DNA of 64,000 nucleotides from a bacterium (GTDB lineage Bacteria > UBP15 > UBA6099). Positions 3,274-53,478 of this stretch are shown one piece after another. The notes under the pieces are model-generated. The model searched no databases. It worked only from the letters and a program-made list of their open reading frames with translations, and had not been told where the DNA came from. Each line of letters starts with the position of its first letter. The first letter of the stretch is position 1. The translations under genes and the position numbers were made by a program. The stretch is taken from assembly GCA_029564595.1 (NCBI GenBank), contig JAKQPS010000001.1, positions 124,001 through 188,000 on the forward strand. Reading direction: 5' to 3'.

Positions 3274-4484
3274 TTTTCTTTCTCCGAGCTGGCGCGGGCG
3301 CGGAGGAACTCCTCCAGCAGCCTCGTGAACTCGCCGGCGTGTTTCTTTTCGATGATGAACGGCGGAAGTATCCTTATGATATTGCTTCTTATGGCGTTGA
3401 TTAGGACGCCGTTCTGCATAAAGAACGCCGCCGCGTCAGCCGCGATATCGTTTTCAAGCTCGACCGCGAGCATCAGTCCCTTGCCTCTGACTTCGCGTAT
3501 GCCGAGGCCGCTCCTGCGGAGTTTTTCCACATCGGCGGTTATCCGCTCGCCCGTAGTTTTTACGTTGACCAGCAGTTTCTTCTCTTCCACTTCGTCGAGG
3601 AACGCGTTTGCGGCAGCGCAGGCGACCGGGCCGCCCCCGAAAGTCGTGGCGTGCGCTCCCGGCGCGAATCCTTCGGCAAGTTTTCCACGCGCCATCATGA
3701 CTCCCAGCGGCAGGCCTCCGCCTATCGGTTTCGCCAGAGTCACCGCGTCAGGCCTGACGCGGTAATGCTCGAACGCGAACCATGTCCCAGTCCTGCCCAT
3801 TCCGCACTGCACCTCGTCGAATATCAGTTGAATCCCGTGTTTGTTACGGAGCGCGGCAAGCCCTCGCATGAATTTCGGGGATGCCGGATATATTCCCGCC
3901 TCGCCCTGCACCGGCTCAATCATGATGGCGGCTGTCTTTTTCGTTATCGCTTTCTCAACAGAATCGATGTCGTTGAAAATAGCGTGCTTGAATCCGGGAG
4001 CCAGCGGGTCGAATCCTTTTTTATACACGTCCTGTCCGGTGGCGGTCAGAGTCATCAGCGTTCGTCCGTGGAACGAGTTCTTGAAGCAGATTATTTCATG
4101 GCGTCCGTCATTGAGGACTTCAGAGTGGAATCTGCGGACAAGTTTGATGGCCGCCTCGTTAGCCTCGGCGCCGCTGTTGCAGAAGAAAGCCTTGTCCATG
4201 CCGGACAGGGAGGTCAGCCGTCCTGCCAGCCTGAGCATCGGCTCGGTGTAGTAAAGGTTCGATACGTGAGACAACCGGCGCGCCTGCGCGCTTATCGCCG
4301 CCGCCACGCGTTTGTTGCAGTGGCCCAGCGCATTCACCGCAAGCCCTGTCACGAAATCCAGATAGCGGTTCCCGGAATCGTCGTATACGTATACGCCGGC
4401 GCCGCGGTCGAGCATAAGCGGCGTCCGCCGGTACGTTTGAAACACATGTTTTTTGTCCAACTCAGATGCTTCCGAGAATTTCAA
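3270..4484 (-). CDS. argD: Acetylornithine aminotransferase
   Basis: 404 residues. A PLP-dependent class III aminotransferase, converting N-acetylglutamate semialdehyde to N-acetylornithine. Visible marks: N-terminal 'VYVYDDSGNRYLDFVTGLAVNALGH', cofactor-binding 'NSGAEANEAAIKLVR' and 'FHGRT', and the lysine region 'LIFDEVQCGMGRTG' followed by 'LAKPIGGGLPLG', whose Lys carries PLP. It lies 12 bp after argJ and overlaps argF by 4 bp, so it is an internal gene of the arginine operon. Some family members also act on succinyl-diaminopimelate; context favours arginine. Confidence 0.95.
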   Translation of the reverse strand: MKFSEASELDKKHVFQTYRRTPLMLDRGAGVYVYDDSGNRYLDFVTGLAVNALGHCNKRVAAAISAQARRLSHVSNLYYTEPMLRLAGRLTSLSGMDKAFFCNSGAEANEAAIKLVRRFHSEVLNDGRHEIICFKNSFHGRTLMTLTATGQDVYKKGFDPLAPGFKHAIFNDIDSVEKAITKKTAAIMIEPVQGEAGIYPASPKFMRGLAALRNKHGIQLIFDEVQCGMGRTGTWFAFEHYRVRPDAVTLAKPIGGGLPLGVMMARGKLAEGFAPGAHATTFGGGPVACAAANAFLDEVEEKKLLVNVKTTGERITADVEKLRRSGLGIREVRGKGLMLAVELENDIAADAAAFFMQNGVLINAIRSNIIRILPPFIIEKKHAGEFTRLLEEFLRARASSEKEK

Positions 4485-15249: not shown

Positions 15250-16911
15250 TCAGGCTAATGACATATCGATCAAATCCAACACCGTCGAGCCGTTGATGGA
15301 CGAGCTTTGTGCGAGAACCGAAGTCGCGCTTTGAGCGAGAATGTTTTCTTTGGTCAAAGAAAGCGCTTCGCTCGCGATGTCCGCGTCAAGTATCGCGCTC
15401 TTCGAGTTTTCGACGCCGATTATCTGGGCCGCAGTGTCGTTTGCGATATGATTGAGAACTCGCTCCTGTCTTCCGATGAGAGAAAGGGCGTTGCTAAGAG
15501 CGCCGATAGCTTTGTCGGCGACCGAAATGGAGCGTTGAGCCGAATCCGCGTTAGCGACGTCCACGAAGAGCAGATAGTCGAGAGCGCCGCCGACACCCCA
15601 AGGGGTCTGCGCGTCTTTTCTGAAACTGTCCCCGTTGTCCGTGCCAACCTGCAGATACCATGAATTCGACTGAACCTCGTTGGGAGGGTTGGATGTCCAT
15701 GCCATGCCGTTCGTGTCGACTGTGAGATGTTTCCCGTTGTTTATGTAGTCGTTGGACCAAGCGTCCGCCGCCGTTTCGAAATCCGCGAAAGAGGCGTATG
15801 TGTCGGCAAGAACGGTTTCGACGGCTGTGTCGAAGTCGGAGCCGTTGATTACTTCCTGCGCGATTTCGCGCATGCGGCTTGCGCCGAATTTTTCTACGAT
15901 GAATTTCCCGGCTAAGGCCGCCTCGGCGTATTGATTAGAGTCAGCCGGAGCCGATGTCAGCCCGCCGCCGATGGCGGCGAGAACTCCGGCTTCATTGCCA
16001 GTTATGCGCCTGTCAGCTTCTCCCGACACCATCGCGGCCAGCATCTCCTGTCCCCAAGCCGAGCCGCCTCCGCCTCCTAGAGCTATAAACACCGCGTGCG
16101 TCATCTCATGGACTACGACCATCTCCATCGTGAAACCGTGAACAGCCGGGTCGTAACCGAGAAGTTCGGACAACGGACCCGGCCCGTCGGGATCGAGAAA
16201 ATCTTCCACGTCGAAGTTCATGACCATATTGCCGGGAGCGCCGCCCCCGGTCGCCAGCGCGCCTCCGTTGCCGTCGATCTGGCTGAAGTTTATCGTAAGA
16301 TTAAACGATGGGTCGGGCGAAATGCCCAACATGCCGAACACTTTCTCGACGGCGCGGTTGGTCATCCTGACCACCCTGTCCGCCATTTCATCGTATTCAG
16401 CGTCTCCGGGGGCCGCCGGCGGAGCCGGCCCGGCCCATGTATGGTTGACTGTGGTCGAATTTAAATTCGTCGTTACCGAATTCTGGCCTTCATAATTTGA
16501 AGTCACGCTCTTCGTGTTGAATTTGGTGGCTTGCCCCGTCCGGTTAATTTCATTCTTCAGTGATTCGATTTCAGCTTGTATTTTTGCGAGGTCGGAGGCG
16601 GTAAGAGTCGCTTCATTCGCGCCTCGCACGCAAAGGTCTCGGATTCTTTGAGTCATATCTGATATTTCTCTAATGCCGCCTTCCGCCGTGCGCAACATGT
16701 TTATGCCGTCCTGAATATTATGCATGCAGACGTTCAGGCCGCCGATCTGCGCTCTCATGCCGCTTACGATGGCGAGTCCGGACGGATCGTCCGCCGCCCG
16801 GTTTATCCGAAGCCCGGAAGACAGTCTTTGCATCGCGACCGCAGCCGCGCTATGCCTTGAGTCAATGTCATTCAGGGATCTCATCGCGGCGATGCTTGTG
16901 TTTATTATCAA
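15250..16911 (-). CDS. Flagellin with inserted HExxH metallopeptidase domain (flagellinolysin type)
   Basis: 553 residues from a TTG start at 16911, which gives the usual flagellin opening 'MIINTSIAAMRS'; an AAGGAA site lies upstream. Residues 1-150 are the N-terminal D0/D1 flagellin region ('QRLSSGLRINRAADDPSGLA', 'RDLCVRGANEATLT'), and about 455-553 the C-terminal region ('ENSKSAILDADIASEA', 'NILAQSATSVLAQ'). Between them is a ~300-residue insert with the zinc-peptidase motif H268-E-M-T-H272, followed by 'WGQEMLAAMVSGEADRR', where E289 is the probable third zinc ligand of a gluzincin. This matches the described flagellinolysins, flagellins that polymerise while displaying protease on the filament surface. 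It has a sigma-28-like promoter at 17064-17090. Confidence 0.9.
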   Translation of the reverse strand: MIINTSIAAMRSLNDIDSRHSAAAVAMQRLSSGLRINRAADDPSGLAIVSGMRAQIGGLNVCMHNIQDGINMLRTAEGGIREISDMTQRIRDLCVRGANEATLTASDLAKIQAEIESLKNEINRTGQATKFNTKSVTSNYEGQNSVTTNLNSTTVNHTWAGPAPPAAPGDAEYDEMADRVVRMTNRAVEKVFGMLGISPDPSFNLTINFSQIDGNGGALATGGGAPGNMVMNFDVEDFLDPDGPGPLSELLGYDPAVHGFTMEMVVVHEMTHAVFIALGGGGGSAWGQEMLAAMVSGEADRRITGNEAGVLAAIGGGLTSAPADSNQYAEAALAGKFIVEKFGASRMREIAQEVINGSDFDTAVETVLADTYASFADFETAADAWSNDYINNGKHLTVDTNGMAWTSNPPNEVQSNSWYLQVGTDNGDSFRKDAQTPWGVGGALDYLLFVDVANADSAQRSISVADKAIGALSNALSLIGRQERVLNHIANDTAAQIIGVENSKSAILDADIASEALSLTKENILAQSATSVLAQSSSINGSTVLDLIDMSLA

Positions 16912-37962: not shown

Positions 37963-38016
37963 TACCAACTGCCGCAGGGGTTGAAGCGGATTGGTTCGAA
38001 AAACCGGGAGCGCGTC

Positions 38017-39918
38017 ATGAAAACGCTTGGAATACACACGAATTACATTAGAATAACCGCGACAGAGCCTGCTATGAAGGCCGCCGAGGACATCTCCGAA
38101 AAGTCTTATTCGCACGAGGGCGACTGCGTCGTTGTTTATATGGGCGTCGAAAAGGACGACGAGGCCGCCCCGGAGACTGTCGCTAGAAAAGTCGCCGAAG
38201 ACACTATTAAGCGAGCGCAGACGCTAAAAGCGAACAAAATCGTCGTTTATCCTTACGTGCATCTGACGCAGAATCCTTCCTCGCCCAGAACGGCTCTGGC
38301 TGTCCTGAAGAAGACCGCCGAACTGCTCGAACAGAGCGGACTCGACGTGTTCCGCGCCCCGTTCGGCTGGTACAAAGGGTTTGAGATAAGCGCCAAGGGA
38401 CATCCGCTTTCTGAGTGGAGCGGGGTTTTTACCGCCGACGAGCAAGAGGCGGAAGCCGAAGAAAAGAAAGAGGCAAAGGGGCCGAGGGAAAAGTTCACCC
38501 GCTATGTGGCGGTCGACCTAGAGGGCGTGATTTACGAGATAGACCCGAAAGAATTTGAAAAATGTCCGATATTCAAGAAGAAAGAGCCTGTCTATAAGTT
38601 GCTGAAAAGGTTCATCGGCAACGAGCTTGGCAAAGGGATGGACACGGAGCGCGCGCCCAAACACATCGAGTTCATGCAACGGCAGGAGCTTGTCGATTAC
38701 TGCGACGTTTCAGAAAAAGGACACTACAAATGGTTCCCGAAAGGGCTGTTCATACAGAAGCTCATTCTTGATTACGCCGGGCGTCTCGCGCGCGAATGGG
38801 GCGCGATGGAGATAAAGAACCCCCTCATCATCAGGGGCGACAACAACATTGTCGGCGAACTGATGGGCGAGTTCCACGAGAGGGACTACAAAGTGGACGG
38901 CGGCAGGGGAATCTGCTATCTGAGATACGCCTCCGACCCGCTCGGGTTCCCTTTTATGCAAAACGTCAGGTTCTCTTACAAGCAATCGCCGCTAAAGGTG
39001 TACGAAGAGGCGACGTGTTTCAGGAATGAGCAGGAAGGCGAAGTGAGCGGGCTGAAGCGGGTCAGGAACTTCATGATGACCGATATGCACGCCGCATGCT
39101 CAAACTTAGACGAAGCCCGAAACGAGTACGAGGCTCTCTGCCGGAAGTTCCGCGACCTCATGAACGACATCATTGCCCGCGAGCGCTGGGTCCTCGGATG
39201 GGAGGGAACCACCACCTTCTTCGAGGAAAACACCGAATGGCTCCTTAACATCTGCCGCGACATGAAAGTGCCGTCATTCTTCAAACTCATGCCGGAGATG
39301 TCTCACTACTACGCCATCAAAAACGAATTCCAGAGCATTACCGAGGATGAGAGCAACATTCAGGTCTCCACCGTGCAGTGGGACGTCAAGGACGGCGAGC
39401 GCTTCAACATCGGTTTCATCGACGATGACGGAAAGAAGTATCCGTCGCCCGTGATACTGCACGCTTCGAGCTTCGGCAGCATCGAGCGGACTCTCTGCAC
39501 GATTCTTGAGAACATCGCGCTGGACATCCGAGAGGGCAAACCGGGGATGTTCCCCGTGTGGCTCGCTCCCGCTCAGGTGCGCGTCGCTCCGGTTAAGGAC
39601 GAGTTTATCGATCTGGCAGACGAGATAGCCGACCGGCTGAACGCCGCGAACGTCCGCGCCGATGTCGACGACAGACCGGACACAGTGGGCAAAAAAATCA
39701 GAAACGGCGAACGCGAGTGGATTCCTTATATTCTGGTGGTCGGAGCGAAAGAAAAAGAATCAGGCATGCTCACCGTCAGGACGAGGGCTGAGCGCAAAGA
39801 GATTGAAATGACCTTCGACGACCTTGTGGCGCGAATCCGCGAGGAAACCGCAGGCATGCCGTTCCGTCCGCTGCCTCTTCCGGCGCGGGTGAGCAAACGT
39901 CCGATTTTTTTTGGATGA
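38017..39918 (+). CDS. thrS: Threonyl-tRNA synthetase, archaeal type with DTD-like editing domain
   Basis: 634 residues from ATG 38017 (GGGAG upstream). Charges tRNA-Thr with threonine. Residues about 1-145 form the archaea-type editing domain related to D-aminoacyl-tRNA deacylases: 'DCVVVYMGVEKDDE', 'ANKIVVYPYVHLTQNPSSP', and 'FRAPFGWYKGFEISAKGHPL', instead of the bacterial TGS and HxxxH editing domains. The class II core follows (motif-2 region 'ATCFRNEQEGEVSGLKRVRN', 'FMMTDMHAACSN'; motif 3 near 'ASSFGSIERTLCTILE') and an anticodon-binding domain (about 535-634). The family is known mostly from archaea, so it was probably acquired by horizontal transfer. No bacterial-type thrS is in the window. 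Confidence 0.93.
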   Translation: MKTLGIHTNYIRITATEPAMKAAEDISEKSYSHEGDCVVVYMGVEKDDEAAPETVARKVAEDTIKRAQTLKANKIVVYPYVHLTQNPSSPRTALAVLKKTAELLEQSGLDVFRAPFGWYKGFEISAKGHPLSEWSGVFTADEQEAEAEEKKEAKGPREKFTRYVAVDLEGVIYEIDPKEFEKCPIFKKKEPVYKLLKRFIGNELGKGMDTERAPKHIEFMQRQELVDYCDVSEKGHYKWFPKGLFIQKLILDYAGRLAREWGAMEIKNPLIIRGDNNIVGELMGEFHERDYKVDGGRGICYLRYASDPLGFPFMQNVRFSYKQSPLKVYEEATCFRNEQEGEVSGLKRVRNFMMTDMHAACSNLDEARNEYEALCRKFRDLMNDIIARERWVLGWEGTTTFFEENTEWLLNICRDMKVPSFFKLMPEMSHYYAIKNEFQSITEDESNIQVSTVQWDVKDGERFNIGFIDDDGKKYPSPVILHASSFGSIERTLCTILENIALDIREGKPGMFPVWLAPAQVRVAPVKDEFIDLADEIADRLNAANVRADVDDRPDTVGKKIRNGEREWIPYILVVGAKEKESGMLTVRTRAERKEIEMTFDDLVARIREETAGMPFRPLPLPARVSKRPIFFG

Positions 39919-47652: not shown

Positions 47653-49074
47653 TTGTTATTTAACTCTTATGTGTTCATATTCGTTTTTCTTCCGATGACG
47701 CTGGCGGTTTATTACTATGCGGGAAAACGCGGGAATATAGGATATCCGGTCGCCGCGCTGGGGGCGGCGTCGCTGGTGTTCTATTCTTGGTGGGACTACC
47801 GCTATGTGTCGTTGCTGTTGATTTCGATAGCTTTCAACTTCTTTGTGGGCAGGGGAATCGAGAAGTTGCGGGGGAAAGCTCTGATTGTGGCCGGTGTGGC
47901 GGGAAATCTGGCGCTGCTCGGCTATTTCAAATACGCCAATTTTTTCATCGATTCAATCAACGCGGCGCTGGGCGCGGATATCGAACTGACTAAAATCGCG
48001 CTGCCGCTCGGAATTTCTTTTTTTACTTTCACCCAGATCGCGTATCTTGTGGACGCGCACAGGGGCGAAACAAAAGGCTACGGTTTTCGCGAGTACCTGT
48101 TGTTCGTTACGTTGTTTCCCCATCTGATAGCCGGGCCGATTCTTTACCACAAAAGCATGGTTTCCCAGTTCAGAGACCCGCGCGTTTTTATGTTTTCTTG
48201 GGAGTCGATGTCCAAAGGAACCGCCCTTTTCGCGATGGGGCTTTTTAAGAAGACGATTATTGCGGACAATCTGGCCCCGCTCGCCGCATTCGCCTTCAAC
48301 GCTCCCGGAGAAATGACGACCCTCGACGCATGGCAGGGCGCTTTGGCGTACACGTTCCAGTTGTATTTCGACTTCTCCGCCTACTCCGAAATGGCCATCG
48401 GGCTGGGATTGATGCTGAATATGAAACTGCCTGTGAATTTCGATTCGCCGTACAAGTCGAAATCCATAATCGAGTTCTGGCGCAGATGGCACATGACGCT
48501 GTCGTTTTTTTTAAAGAACTACCTATACATACCTCTCGGAGGCAACCGGCGCGGCGAGTTGAGAAAGATGGTCAATATATTCATTACGATGCTGCTTGGC
48601 GGTCTCTGGCACGGGGCAGGGTGGACGTTCGTTTTCTGGGGCGGCCTGCACGGCGTTTACCTTGTGGCAAATCATTCTTTTCGAAAACTTTCAATCAAGT
48701 CGCCTGCGGCTATTTCTTGGGCGCTGACTTTTTTTTGTGTCGTAGTCGCTTGGGTTTTCTTCAGGTCGTCCTCGATGTCCGACGCGTTCAGTATGATAGC
48801 GTCGATGGCAGGAGCAAATGGTCTTGTGCTTCCATATGAGTTTTTCGGCAGGTTCGATTTTATTCCATCCGCTTATGTGGGGGAGTTGAGGTTCGGGTTG
48901 AAAGGGCTTTTGTTCGTTGCTTTTTGCGGCGCTCTGTGCATGTTGCCGAATCCGACGAGATTGATTGAGAAGTTCATGCCCGACGCCCGGTGGGCGTTTG
49001 CCACAATCATTTTGCTGGCGGCGTCGCTGTTTTCTTTCAACAAAGTGAGCGAGTTCCTGTATTTTCAATTCTAA
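47653..49074 (+). CDS. MBOAT family O-acyltransferase (AlgI/DltB-like)
   Basis: 473 residues from a TTG start that gives the family-typical opening 'MLFNSYVFIFVFLP'; the Shine-Dalgarno is weak. About ten membrane segments. The MBOAT core is visible as 'FSAYSEMAIGLGLMLNMKLP', 'WRRWHMTLSFFLKNYLYIPL' and 'LLGGLWHGAGWTFVFWGGLH', the last with the catalytic His. AlgI-type proteins move acetyl groups across the membrane for polysaccharide acetylation, working with an SGNH partner such as the next gene. Confidence 0.93.
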   Translation: MLFNSYVFIFVFLPMTLAVYYYAGKRGNIGYPVAALGAASLVFYSWWDYRYVSLLLISIAFNFFVGRGIEKLRGKALIVAGVAGNLALLGYFKYANFFIDSINAALGADIELTKIALPLGISFFTFTQIAYLVDAHRGETKGYGFREYLLFVTLFPHLIAGPILYHKSMVSQFRDPRVFMFSWESMSKGTALFAMGLFKKTIIADNLAPLAAFAFNAPGEMTTLDAWQGALAYTFQLYFDFSAYSEMAIGLGLMLNMKLPVNFDSPYKSKSIIEFWRRWHMTLSFFLKNYLYIPLGGNRRGELRKMVNIFITMLLGGLWHGAGWTFVFWGGLHGVYLVANHSFRKLSIKSPAAISWALTFFCVVVAWVFFRSSSMSDAFSMIASMAGANGLVLPYEFFGRFDFIPSAYVGELRFGLKGLLFVAFCGALCMLPNPTRLIEKFMPDARWAFATIILLAASLFSFNKVSEFLYFQF

Positions 49075-49109
49075 ACCGGAGCGGGAGCGTTCTTTAAGCG
49101 GTAAACGCA

Positions 49110-50057
49110 ATGAAAACTGAAAACGACCACAAAAGATATTTCTTCGGAGTATTTTTCGGGCTTGCGGCGTTGTTTTTGACCGTAGGAGCTTTCAATTATG
49201 TTCTTGACCCGTTCGAGATGAACGCGCATTTCGATTTCGGGCTGCCGTGTGAAGCTGTTTCGATGAAAGCCAACCCGCAATTGTATAAAATCATCCAGTT
49301 CGAAAGAGAGCCGTGCCCCAACATTATTCTCGGCGATTCAAGAGGGAACGCGTTCGCGCCGGATGTCGTTAGCGGGATGACGGGCGAATGCGCTTTCAAT
49401 TTTTCATTTCACGGCAGTTCACCGTCCGAGGCCCGCGACATTCTCAAGAGAGCCTCCGGCTCCGTCGCTTTGAAAAATGTCTATATGGCGCTCAATTTCG
49501 ATTACATGGGAAGGAACGAGTTGCGGGACGCGGTGGCTCAGGCTGAAAAGACCGCCGACAGTCCGTTAATCTACTATTTTTCAATCTTCACCGCGAGAAT
49601 CGCCGCAAGAAACCTTTCGGATTTGCTGCGGAATAAAGAAGCGATTTCGACGAATCCGCCGCCGAGAAGCCAAGAGGAACACTGGCGCTTCATGCTTGAA
49701 AAACGCGGCTCGCTCATATTCAGGAATATGACCTATCCGAACCGGAATCTAGGGATTTTAATGGAGATAAAACAAATATGCGACAACGAAGGCGCGCGTC
49801 TGGTTTTTATCATTCCGCCGACCCATGCGGATTTTAGAAGTCTCATCGGCAAGCACGGGCTTGCGGAAGGTTTCGAGAGATACAAAGCCGACCTTGCCTC
49901 GATATCCGAAACGGTTGACTGCGATTACGACGGAGAATTGACAGAAGACAGGAATAATTTCTCTGACCCGACCCACGTGACGAAGGAAACGATGGAAAGG
50001 ATCGCAAAGGATGTTTTTACCGGTGAATACGAGATTTGCCGAAGTGGGGGGCTGTGA
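49110..50057 (+). CDS. SGNH/AlgJ-like acetyltransferase partner
   Basis: 315 residues, 35 bp after the MBOAT gene. One N-terminal membrane segment (about 10-30), then an extracytoplasmic SGNH-hydrolase-like domain: 'IILGDSRGNAF' (catalytic Ser), 'NFSFHGSSPSEARDILKR' and C-terminal 'NNFSDPTHVTKE' (Asp-x-x-His). With the MBOAT it forms a two-gene O-acetylation module for an exported glycan. The flagellin gene follows, so a glycan on the flagellum or cell surface is a possible target (inference). Confidence 0.82.
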   Translation: MKTENDHKRYFFGVFFGLAALFLTVGAFNYVLDPFEMNAHFDFGLPCEAVSMKANPQLYKIIQFEREPCPNIILGDSRGNAFAPDVVSGMTGECAFNFSFHGSSPSEARDILKRASGSVALKNVYMALNFDYMGRNELRDAVAQAEKTADSPLIYYFSIFTARIAARNLSDLLRNKEAISTNPPPRSQEEHWRFMLEKRGSLIFRNMTYPNRNLGILMEIKQICDNEGARLVFIIPPTHADFRSLIGKHGLAEGFERYKADLASISETVDCDYDGELTEDRNNFSDPTHVTKETMERIAKDVFTGEYEICRSGGL

Positions 50058-50184: not shown

Positions 50185-50211
50185 TAAACTTTTCTCAAGG
50201 AATGCCGATAA
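50185..50211 (+). promoter_or_regulatory. Sigma-28 (FliA) promoter of the large flagellin gene
   Basis: TAAA (50185-50188), exactly 15 nt, then GCCGATAA (50204-50211): a complete match to the sigma-28 consensus. Start expected near 50219, so the leader is about 308 nt. Confidence 0.93.
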
Positions 50212-50218
50212 CAAGAGA

Positions 50219-50526
50219 GAGATAAATATACGAATCCCGCAATGGGGGGATTCGAGCATTTGGTTATGTCGGAACATGACATAACCATACGTCGCATTTA
50301 CATACTTCCACAAGGATGTGGAAGGCGCTGTGACATAGGCGCGCGCGATTAGGGCCTGTCGCTTTCTCCCACGGAGGGGGAGACGAAGTTTGCGTACTTC
50401 GTTTCCTGAGAGGGCGATCGGCTCTGTTTCATCGTATTCGCGCGATATCGGCAGTGCTTGTCGTGGTTATTCCGCGTATGCGGATGCGCGCGCGGATGCG
50501 CGCTTAGCAAACAAAGGGAGTTGGAT
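50219..50526 (+). promoter_or_regulatory. Long structured flagellin leader with GGA-loop hairpins (putative CsrA target)
   Basis: Successive hairpins: 50231-50254 (8 bp); 50261-50287 (10 bp, loop GGAACAT); 50305-50324 (8 bp, loop AGGA, giving ACAAGGATGT, which fits the CsrA consensus RUACARGGAUGU over its last ten positions); 50365-50383 (6 bp, loop ACGGAGG); 50383-50402 (7 bp); 50488-50503 (GCGCGC stems, loop GGAT). The Shine-Dalgarno (GGGAGTTGGAT) adds two more GGA. Four loops that show GGA, plus the SD, is the arrangement of CsrA/RsmA-controlled mRNAs; CsrA control of flagellin is established in Bacillus subtilis (hag). Not tested here. Confidence 0.6.
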
Positions 50527-53478
50527 ATGAAAATCGACAACGCTATAGGGTCTTTGAACGTCAACAATCTCCATATGAGATTTTTAGAGATGAAGACAGC
50601 GTCGGAACGGCTTTCGTCGGGGTTGAAAATCAACCGCTCTGCGGACGACCCGTCGGGCCTCGCGATACGAGACGGCATGAACGCAAAGGCCAGATCGCTG
50701 TCAACCGCCATCGCGAACGTGGAAGAGTCCATCAGGATGACGCGCATAATGGACTCTTCAATGGCAACAATCGGCGATATTCTCGTCCAGTTGAAGAGTC
50801 TCGCGGTGAGAGCGTCCAACGAAGCAGTTTTGAGGGACGATTGCTCCGACCGCACAAAACTCAACAATGAAGCCAGAGCGCTCGTAAAAGAAATCGACCA
50901 GATAGCGTATTCGACGTTGTACAACGCCAAAAAAATACTTCAGGGAGACATTGTCGAGGACATCGTCGCCGACGGGGCGACGCTGCAGACTGTCGTCTCC
51001 ACTGGGACGGCGCACAGCGCAAGCTGGGCGGCGAACAATCAGATTCTTTACATCGACGAAGTGGGTTCGGACGCGACGCGTCCCGGTGGAGCGGGCACGA
51101 CGGACAGAGCGTTTATCCAGACGATTGATCCGGCGACAAACACCGCCATCGGCGCGGCATCCCAATTCACTCACGACCCCTATGTGCTGGTCGATCCCGA
51201 CGGCGACGGGTACTACGATGTCGGGCCGGTCGGTGTAATCAATGACGTTTTGAACTTCGTGGGCGCGTCGGCCCCTAATCAGATCGACGCGGACGGCGAT
51301 GGATGGGTCGTGGGAATAGACAACAACGACGCTGACGCCACCGAAGTCGGCGCTTCGCTTAGCGCGGCGCTTCCGATATATACTATCGCTTCATCAGGCT
51401 CCGTCGATTCAACAGACATGTCGACTGTGTCGCAAACCAACACCAGAACAAGAACTTTCACAGGAGGAGCCACGCTCGTCGAAGACCTTACCGTCACTGT
51501 GACGGCGGGAATGAATTATACCGTTCAAGTCAGGGATTCCGGGACGAGCGCGTGGGTGTCTGTATTTTCAGGAGTAAGCGTAGGCGGGCCGGCGACTCAC
51601 GCCGTCGGCGGAGCGACCACATACAACGCCGTCCGGGTCGTTCTCGACGAACCGGTGAATTTATCTACTGCTATAACGATTAACAGCGTGAACGCTCCCG
51701 GTCCGGTCCCGGTGGCTCTAAGCGGCGTAGTGAACAGTTTCGTTGACATCGGCCCGGTCAACACCAATGTCAGAACATTTACGATGAATACTTCCGCCGG
51801 CGCGGTCTCTCGCAGTCTTGACAGAATCAGCGTTTCCGTAAAAAGCGGCCATGCGTTCAGAATACAATGGTCGGATGACGGCGTTTCTTGGGGCAATTTG
51901 ACGTCAAGCACAGGCACGGGCGGCCTTCAGACTTTCAGTTACACTACTGACACGAATATTGACCTTAACTCGAATGGAACAGCCTTCATTCGCGTGGTTA
52001 TAAGATCAGGCGAAGACGCTTCGACTGCGATATTGGCTAACCCGACTGTTATGAACCGCAGAGACAGGGACGGAGACGGATTCCCTGATGTCATCGAGGT
52101 TGCGGCAGGCTCCAACTCAAACGTGGTGGGAAGCATTCCCGCGTGGTCTCTTTCCGGAGACCCCGACTTAGACGCGGACGGATTTCTCGATCACGCCAGC
52201 TACGATTTGATTTACGACAACACATATTCCTCCACTAATAATCCGTTCGGAGCTGAATGGGACGGATCGGGCGCGCTGCTCGGCAATCCCCTTGACTCCG
52301 CCAGCGGGCAATATGCCGGCGGACTCAATATCGATCCGACCCAAGTTCCGTCCAATGTGGACACGGACGGCGATACGATCCCCGACCCGCTGGACCCGAT
52401 ACCCGGAACGGCTGAATGGCTCACATGGAACGATTATGGGGCGGCTTACAAGGGCGGGGATATGTGGTTTATCTCAAATCGCTCAACTCCCGGCCAGAAC
52501 GTGAGAGATATCTACACGCTCAATGGAACGACATACTCATTCGCAAGCGATTCCCTGACAGACGACGCCTCGGACATAGCGATGTCTAACGGCGGAGATA
52601 TGGTGGCTTGGATAGAAAACGGAAATATCTATTACGCCAACTCGTCCACATCCTGCACGGGCGTCACCGGCGCGATGAATGTCAACCAACTGACTTTCGG
52701 CGGGAACAACTACAATAACCCGTCGTGGAAGTATGACAACTCTCAACTCGTAGTGGACGACGGCGGTAGTATCGTCATAATCGATTTCGCCACCGGAGCG
52801 GTTTCTTCTGACAGTCCCGGCGTGGCGGGGACCAACCCCGACTGGTCTTCCGACGGCGACAACATCGTCTATGAAAGCGGCGGGGCCATAAAGGTTTACA
52901 ATCTCGTAATGGAGCAGGAATTTGATCTGGGCGTGTCCGGAACGAATCCAACGTGGTCTCCGGACGGAAGCAAGATTCTCTTTGAATCGGGCGGCAGCGC
53001 GATGGTTGTGGATGTGACGATAACTAAGCGCCCGTCTGACGTTCAGGCGAACTCGGACAACATCGATTCGCACAAGTTCGACTTCTCAATGCCGGACGCT
53101 CGCGCGTACAACCTCGGCGTGAACTCGCTGAATATACAGTCGCAGGCCGGCGCCTTGAACGGCATAGACCAAGCAGACGACGCGATCGAGACTCTCAACG
53201 GAATGAGGGCGAGCGTAGGACAGATGGAAAACGTGATGGGGCATTTGCTTGAAGACCTACGCATGGAATACATCAATGTGGTGGCGGCAAGGTCCAATAT
53301 TGAAGACGCGGACTTTGCGCGCGTCGCCGTCGATATGGCCAAAGCAAAAATCCTGACGGACTCGGCTCTCGCCGTGACTTCACAGATGGATTCGGTGAGG
53401 AGAGGCGCGCTCGACCTTCTAAGTCAGCACGGCGTCAATCCCGGCATGAAGACGGCGGAAGAACTCGCCGCTGTCTGA
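50527..53478 (+). CDS. Large flagellin with calcium-binding, beta-sandwich and beta-propeller insert
   Basis: 983 residues from ATG 50527 (GGGAG upstream). Residues 1-140 are N-terminal flagellin ('ASERLSSGLKINRSADDPSG') and about 850-983 C-terminal flagellin ('ARSNIEDADFARVAVDMAKA'). The insert holds calcium-binding DxDxDG repeats at 223-231, 254-270, 513-521, 547-554 and 612-620 (thrombospondin-3/dockerin-like), two ~100-residue beta-sandwich repeats (about 290-395 and 398-505), and PD40/TolB-like propeller blades at about 643-830 ('PDWSSDGDNIVYES', 'PTWSPDGSKILFES'). Flagellins are normally 250-500 residues. The C-terminus also extends past the usual end by about 20 residues. Filament subunit that probably displays a ligand-binding domain on the surface. 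Confidence 0.92.
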   Translation: MKIDNAIGSLNVNNLHMRFLEMKTASERLSSGLKINRSADDPSGLAIRDGMNAKARSLSTAIANVEESIRMTRIMDSSMATIGDILVQLKSLAVRASNEAVLRDDCSDRTKLNNEARALVKEIDQIAYSTLYNAKKILQGDIVEDIVADGATLQTVVSTGTAHSASWAANNQILYIDEVGSDATRPGGAGTTDRAFIQTIDPATNTAIGAASQFTHDPYVLVDPDGDGYYDVGPVGVINDVLNFVGASAPNQIDADGDGWVVGIDNNDADATEVGASLSAALPIYTIASSGSVDSTDMSTVSQTNTRTRTFTGGATLVEDLTVTVTAGMNYTVQVRDSGTSAWVSVFSGVSVGGPATHAVGGATTYNAVRVVLDEPVNLSTAITINSVNAPGPVPVALSGVVNSFVDIGPVNTNVRTFTMNTSAGAVSRSLDRISVSVKSGHAFRIQWSDDGVSWGNLTSSTGTGGLQTFSYTTDTNIDLNSNGTAFIRVVIRSGEDASTAILANPTVMNRRDRDGDGFPDVIEVAAGSNSNVVGSIPAWSLSGDPDLDADGFLDHASYDLIYDNTYSSTNNPFGAEWDGSGALLGNPLDSASGQYAGGLNIDPTQVPSNVDTDGDTIPDPLDPIPGTAEWLTWNDYGAAYKGGDMWFISNRSTPGQNVRDIYTLNGTTYSFASDSLTDDASDIAMSNGGDMVAWIENGNIYYANSSTSCTGVTGAMNVNQLTFGGNNYNNPSWKYDNSQLVVDDGGSIVIIDFATGAVSSDSPGVAGTNPDWSSDGDNIVYESGGAIKVYNLVMEQEFDLGVSGTNPTWSPDGSKILFESGGSAMVVDVTITKRPSDVQANSDNIDSHKFDFSMPDARAYNLGVNSLNIQSQAGALNGIDQADDAIETLNGMRASVGQMENVMGHLLEDLRMEYINVVAARSNIEDADFARVAVDMAKAKILTDSALAVTSQMDSVRRGALDLLSQHGVNPGMKTAEELAAV

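Follow-up and report, generated by a model that had tools for sequence, protein, structure and literature searches.

The window analysed here, a 64-kb (64,000-nucleotide) stretch of a bacterial contig, contains on its + strand an open frame of 983 codons (positions 50527-53478) whose product, termed here P0001, starts and ends like a flagellin, raising the question of whether this is one real gene and, if so, what its middle folds into and does on the outside of a filament. Its parts are as follows:

50527..53478, + strand: propeller flagellin P0001, 983 aa (Pfam, AlphaFold2, Foldseek)
50527..50949, + strand: N-terminal D0/D1 helices, residues 1-141, with ERLSSGLKIN..ADDPSGLAI (Flagellin_N 9e-23; AlphaFold2 helices 6-31, 42-103 and 106-129)
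50950..51168, + strand: probable first blade, residues 142-214 (AlphaFold2 strands)
51193..51228, + strand: calcium-type loop 1 (DPDGDGYYDVGP), residue 223 (motif count)
51286..51321, + strand: calcium-type loop 2 (DADGDGWVVGID), residue 254 (motif count)
51385..51684, + strand: beta-sandwich repeat 1, residues ~287-386 (internal repeat score)
51712..52041, + strand: beta-sandwich repeat 2, residues ~396-505, weak F5/8 type C similarity (Pfam; internal repeat score)
52063..52098, + strand: calcium-type/TSP3-like loop 3 (DRDGDGFPDVIE), residue 513 (Pfam; motif count)
52165..52200, + strand: calcium-type loop 4 (DLDADGFLDHAS), residue 547 (motif count)
52360..52395, + strand: calcium-type/TSP3-like loop 5 (DTDGDTIPDPLD), residue 612 (motif count)
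52432..53085, + strand: predicted propeller blades 2-6, residues 636-853, TolB/PD40 type (PD40; TIGR02800; AlphaFold2; Foldseek)
53086..53478, + strand: C-terminal D1/D0 helices, residues 854-967, plus a 16-residue tail (Flagellin_C 3e-14; AlphaFold2 helix 873-967)

Both ends of P0001 matched their Pfam families above the curated cut-offs, Flagellin_N at residues 13-140 (9e-23; 81.3 bits against a cut-off of 26.6) and Flagellin_C at residues 880-965 (3e-14; 53.5 bits against 23), confirming the intact termini claimed in an earlier note on this DNA, and the same ends aligned with many solved flagellin structures. Among NCBIfam models, those for flagellins matched best (2e-30), ahead of the hook-associated protein FlgL (7e-15), and the score of ~100 bits fell below the flagellin equivalog and subfamily cut-offs (330 bits and more), as expected from the foreign middle. 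Aligned with ordinary flagellins, the whole insert starts where the N-side D1 ends and stops immediately ahead of the 'lQhGpdN' element in the C-side D1: P0001 is a genuine flagellin with a foreign middle.

That this arrangement is an assembly artefact or a decaying gene, in which mis-assembly or recombination would have fused originally separate genes for a flagellin, calcium repeats and PD40, is very hard to credit. A second genome of the genus carries a copy (L017, the same locus as L019; contig JAKQBV010000530.1) that is 97% identical over residues 1-869, the contig ending at the latter residue, and up to that point all junctions are identically placed, such that the pairing of flagellin and propeller, whose conservation the earlier note had proposed as a check, is kept in this relative. 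Purifying selection acts on every segment in this comparison (dN 0.016, dS 0.35, dN/dS ~0.05 overall), including the propeller (0.010/0.323, ~0.03), and a related architecture recurs in G006, another genome of the order, at 47% and ~31% identity. In favour of a join, the two close genomes have different neighbours upstream of the gene and share only ~340 bp of upstream DNA; nevertheless, the copy in the second genome refutes an artefactual fusion of separate genes at this locus. The gene was not found in G003, a 92% complete genome of the same genus, and its role would thus be dispensable.

Judging from the sequence upstream and the genomic context, P0001 looks to be expressed as a flagellar gene. 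Two features precede its coding region:

50185..50211, + strand: sigma-28 (FliA)-type promoter, TAAA-N15-GCCGATAA (exact consensus match)
50212..50526, + strand: 315-nt 5' leader, strongly structured, single copy (comparison with L017; folding)

The window contains this one exact match to the promoter, against 0.01 expected, and L017 keeps both boxes (at 3842) despite a diverged spacer; a Shine-Dalgarno-like AAGGGAG lies upstream of the ATG. The leader is 96% identical to that of L017, with ~140 nt unchanged, while synonymous sites differ by 0.35, and its folding energy of -138 kcal/mol corresponds to z = -7.3 relative to shuffles. It occurs once in G000 and once in G001, with no others, and a search against Rfam returned no family match; we regard it as a possible new cis-regulatory RNA. 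The genome that carries P0001 also encodes FlhA, a MotA-type protein and ~15 flagellin genes (from 16 matches, of which two are parts of a single broken copy).

The earlier note had read a PD40/TolB-like propeller into the middle of the protein, and structure prediction, run as a check on this reading, bore it out: Foldseek ranks 1-11 in the PDB for the P0001 model were all TolB, with a best E of 8e-10, and TolB was already matched (3.6e-8) by a model from 12 sequences. The model used here, from a 26-sequence alignment, has a pLDDT of 58 (52 with 12 sequences), with values mostly of 70-95 across residues 680-840 and likewise in most flagellin helices. Sequence profiles point in the same direction, with a PD40 match at residues 806-822 (4.8e-6; 26.8 bits against the Pfam cut-off of 20.9) and a match to the TolB model TIGR02800 (4.8e-8) that, at 32.4 bits, misses the full-length cut-off of 343 bits. 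A repeat model built from the C-side blades of the propeller-flagellin family placed four blades at residues 680-831, which themselves contributed to building that model, and a fifth is visible at residues 637-677 in the AlphaFold2 model, in line with the earlier count of at least three. On this modelling, the middle of P0001 is a propeller of the TolB/PD40 type.

The remainder of the insert combines calcium-type loops with a tandem repeat. Of the five DxDxDG motifs claimed earlier, four are exact (residues 223, 254, 513 and 547) and the fifth, DTDGDT at residue 612, is instead DxDxDT; shuffles of the same composition contained 0.07 DxDxDG motifs on average and 2 at most. The TSP3_bac match at residues 513-532 is weak (0.003; 17.8 bits, under the cut-off of 25), the motif itself being present. 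The two beta-sandwich repeats described earlier do form a tandem pair, in that residues ~287-386 and ~396-505 align with each other at a score of 87, equalled by none of 2000 shuffles, and residues 443-494 show weak F5/8 type C similarity, below the Pfam cut-off. The insert is strongly acidic, with a pI of ~4.05 for the propeller and for each of the two calcium segments, and a net charge of about -59 over residues 146-850 (summed over segments). Across residues 215-635, comprising these loops and sandwiches, the AlphaFold2 pLDDT is ~30.

The propeller is probably not a domain of its own placed after the calcium repeats; it probably starts at D1 and is split. In siblings that lack calcium loops (L069, L070 and P0002), blades run from the end of the N-side D1 to the C-side D1, whereas in P0001 and L067 a short strand-rich segment follows the N-side D1, then the calcium-type loops, and then the remaining blades, the calcium repeats of L067 (14 DxDxDG motifs) occupying the same place as those of P0001. 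AlphaFold2 predicts strands in P0001 at residues 142-157, 162-167, 172-179, 192-200 and 207-214, in a block with pLDDT of ~42-86. The equivalent segment of L067 scored 9.8 bits with the blade model, against a best of 8.5 in 2000 shuffles; P0001's own N-side segment (residues 142-214) received no score, and its similarity to that of L067 lacked significance, 1212 of 2000 shuffles doing equally well, such that the case for a split relies on the AlphaFold2 strands and the siblings. From these we infer that blade 1 (residues ~142-214) probably adjoins D1 and is separated from blade 2 by the inserted calcium and sandwich segment, and that the P0001 propeller probably has six blades, interrupted by an insert of ~420 residues.

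Propeller flagellins are not restricted to this genus: at least five further ones occur in the same order, including L066, L067, L069 and L070 in G006 and L060 in G005. L066 (675 aa) is cut at its contig start, and P0001 residues 314-953 are 47% identical to L020/L066; L067, a frame of 1027 codons with ~1009 aa from its ATG, is 31% identical to P0001 overall; and L060 is likewise cut at its contig start. The TolB character is strongest in L070, which matches TIGR02800 at 1.6e-89 (300.8 bits) and PD40 at 1.1e-54. Outside the order, at least one of ~330 sampled genomes (G275, unrelated) has a propeller flagellin, a lower bound in that the five top candidates per genome were scored; this protein, P0002 (L097:412-2052), is a 547-aa flagellin with a TolB-like propeller and, when sought in 60 genomes, was present in its own alone.

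Within the order, flagellins carry other decorations as well. VWA domains were detected above the Pfam cut-off in L064 and L072 and below it in L071 and L081, and L062, L073 and L075 are assigned to the same type by a D-x-S/T-x-S motif resembling a metal site. In all seven the VWA-type insert with this motif sits right after the N-side D1. Flagellins with HExxH comprise L057, L074 and one in the window itself:

15250..16911, - strand: flagellinolysin-like flagellin with an HEMTH motif (Flagellin_N 6e-31; NF033876 6.9e-24, 85 bits against a cut-off of 205)

The window copy has an orthologue within the genus (L057) and another in G006 (L074). A further five flagellins of ~900-1000 aa (L048, L056, L058, L061 and L068), from three families of the order, carry large beta-rich inserts for which no Pfam match exceeded the cut-off. 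In a tree of the D0/D1 regions, the short tandem flagellins fall on short branches within a single clade (99/98), while the decorated ones have long branches and are dispersed over the tree; the propeller flagellins are not placed together (5 changes, a number as low in 103 of 500 shuffles), and with its deep forks unresolved the tree favours neither a single insertion nor several.

Taken jointly, we think these observations are fairly probably explained by a functional, probably minor, flagellin that has a propeller in place of D2 and a storey of calcium-type loops and sandwiches, and that binds a ligand or surface. The D0/D1 ends would, by family and model, be an ordinary core that packs into the filament, and model and homologues suggest that the chain passes from D1 directly into a TolB-like propeller replacing D2. 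After blade 1, it would run into the calcium-type loops and the two beta-sandwiches and return for five blades. External calcium may stiffen this outer part, the acidic chain crossing the export channel unfolded and folding on the filament surface, by analogy with other calcium-folded exported repeats; such calcium-dependent folding outside the cell fits the strong acidity of the outer part. Propeller and sandwiches would then bind, for example, a polysaccharide, a particle or another cell. The bulk of the filament would likely be made of this genome's tandem short flagellins with P0001 mixed in, and part of the swimming filament would probably be coated with binding modules. Because PD40/TolB propellers are mostly protein-interaction modules and a catalytic family was not detected, its most likely role is in binding or attachment. 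Of the ligand-binding or enzymatic domain proposed earlier, the enzymatic half found no support, as Pfam and NCBIfam searches of P0001 returned no catalytic domain and the protein has no HExxH zinc site. Whether its outer face is specifically a display module for binding, not an enzyme, we hold to be evenly balanced.

The main competing explanation, which we consider rather unlikely, is mechanical only: the outer domains would pack into a thick, stiff or sheathed filament for viscous surroundings, without any ligand. Proteins often use calcium loops and beta-sandwiches as structural spacers. Bermanella and Oleibacter have giant flagellins that form thick filaments (PMC6248924), and outer-domain sheaths change motility in viscous media (PMC8931119). 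However, the order holds varied inserts (propeller, VWA with a metal-site motif, HExxH) beside its short-flagellin family, which looks like diversification of surface functions and not like one mechanical solution. An enzymatic filament, in which the propeller itself would be catalytic, this fold being that of sialidases and some lyases, is less probable still. L070 does have a match (1.3e-7) to the oligogalacturonate lyase propeller, and several siblings match DPPIV_N, but DPPIV_N is the propeller of that enzyme, distinct from its hydrolase domain, and no hydrolase domain is attached. P0001 itself matches PD40/TolB alone, and neither lyase nor sialidase in Pfam or NCBIfam, even though protease-active flagellins exist (PMC5595980) and sialidase domains occur in 10 flagellins.

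Beyond the binding role favoured for P0001, a more tentative reading, to which we give appreciably less credence, is that the filament of the whole order serves as a modular display rack, with short flagellins as its shaft, mixed-in decorated flagellins each contributing another binding or cutting surface, and external calcium as the trigger for folding after export. The decorations would then comprise TolB-like propellers, split and fitted with calcium rods, as well as VWA domains bearing a MIDAS-like motif, peptidases of the HExxH type and giant beta-sandwiches. If this is true, the order-wide decorated flagellins would make the flagella of this lineage a multi-purpose surface organelle.

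Insertion of domains into flagellins is known: a 2017 survey of the hypervariable regions counted 61 kinds of inserted domain, VWA and sialidase among them, and a protease is proven among the domain-inserted flagellins (PMC5595980). The earlier statement that such an architecture is not described thus holds in part. PD40, TolB, propeller or TSP3 in a flagellin was not found described in the literature, a comparison that excludes the survey's supplementary domain list; a PD40/TolB propeller with calcium-type loops is apparently a new variation. The vWFA- and sialidase-insert flagellins show that the hypervariable region can accommodate domains that are adhesive or have a propeller fold, but belong to other families than P0001, and none of the 10 listed is a PD40/TolB propeller with a calcium-loop insert (Eckhard 2017, Table 1). 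Flagellinolysin (NF033876) similarly displays a foreign folded domain on the filament between intact D0/D1 ends; P0001 differs in lacking HExxH and predicted catalysis, its insert consisting of a TolB-like propeller, calcium-type loops and sandwiches. The Bermanella and Oleibacter giants share an outer region larger by several hundred residues, tandem repeats included, but theirs are tandem DE regions without similarity to known enzymes, in contrast to a propeller (PMC6248924), and at 983 aa P0001 falls just under the giant-flagellin line of >1000 aa, its sibling L067 (~1009 aa) lying above it. The Geovibrio thiophilus flagellin 9au6 (793 aa, cryo-EM) is also large and matches P0001 in D0/D1, the sequence match being limited to these and short adjoining stretches. 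TolB resembles P0001 in blade sequence, fold and, probably, a count of six blades; the rest of TolB is unmatched, and the P0001 propeller would differ in being split by the calcium and sandwich segment and in taking the flagellar export route.

The flagellar filament ranks among the largest polymers that bacteria make, and flagellin inserts are what it exposes at its surface. The proposed architecture, if true, would add propellers of the protein-interaction type to a list of known inserts that includes proteases and simple outer domains. A propeller of the TolB-like kind, joined precisely to D1 and itself carrying a second insert of calcium-type loops, would also offer a testable case for the export and outside folding of a large acidic insert.

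Three further observations concern the surroundings of the gene and other loci. Directly upstream of the flagellin, window positions 47653-50057 (+ strand) encode an MBOAT acyltransferase followed by a Pfam-less protein, neither of which is conserved in L017. Another flagellin locus, L051 (G000:C36:18000-23500), has its N-terminal part in a different frame, with overlapping frames of 63 and 431 aa, and is probably frameshifted or mis-assembled. Window positions 37981-39918 (+ strand) encode a threonyl-tRNA synthetase with the editing domain PF08915 (8.5e-40), which Pfam terms archaea-specific.
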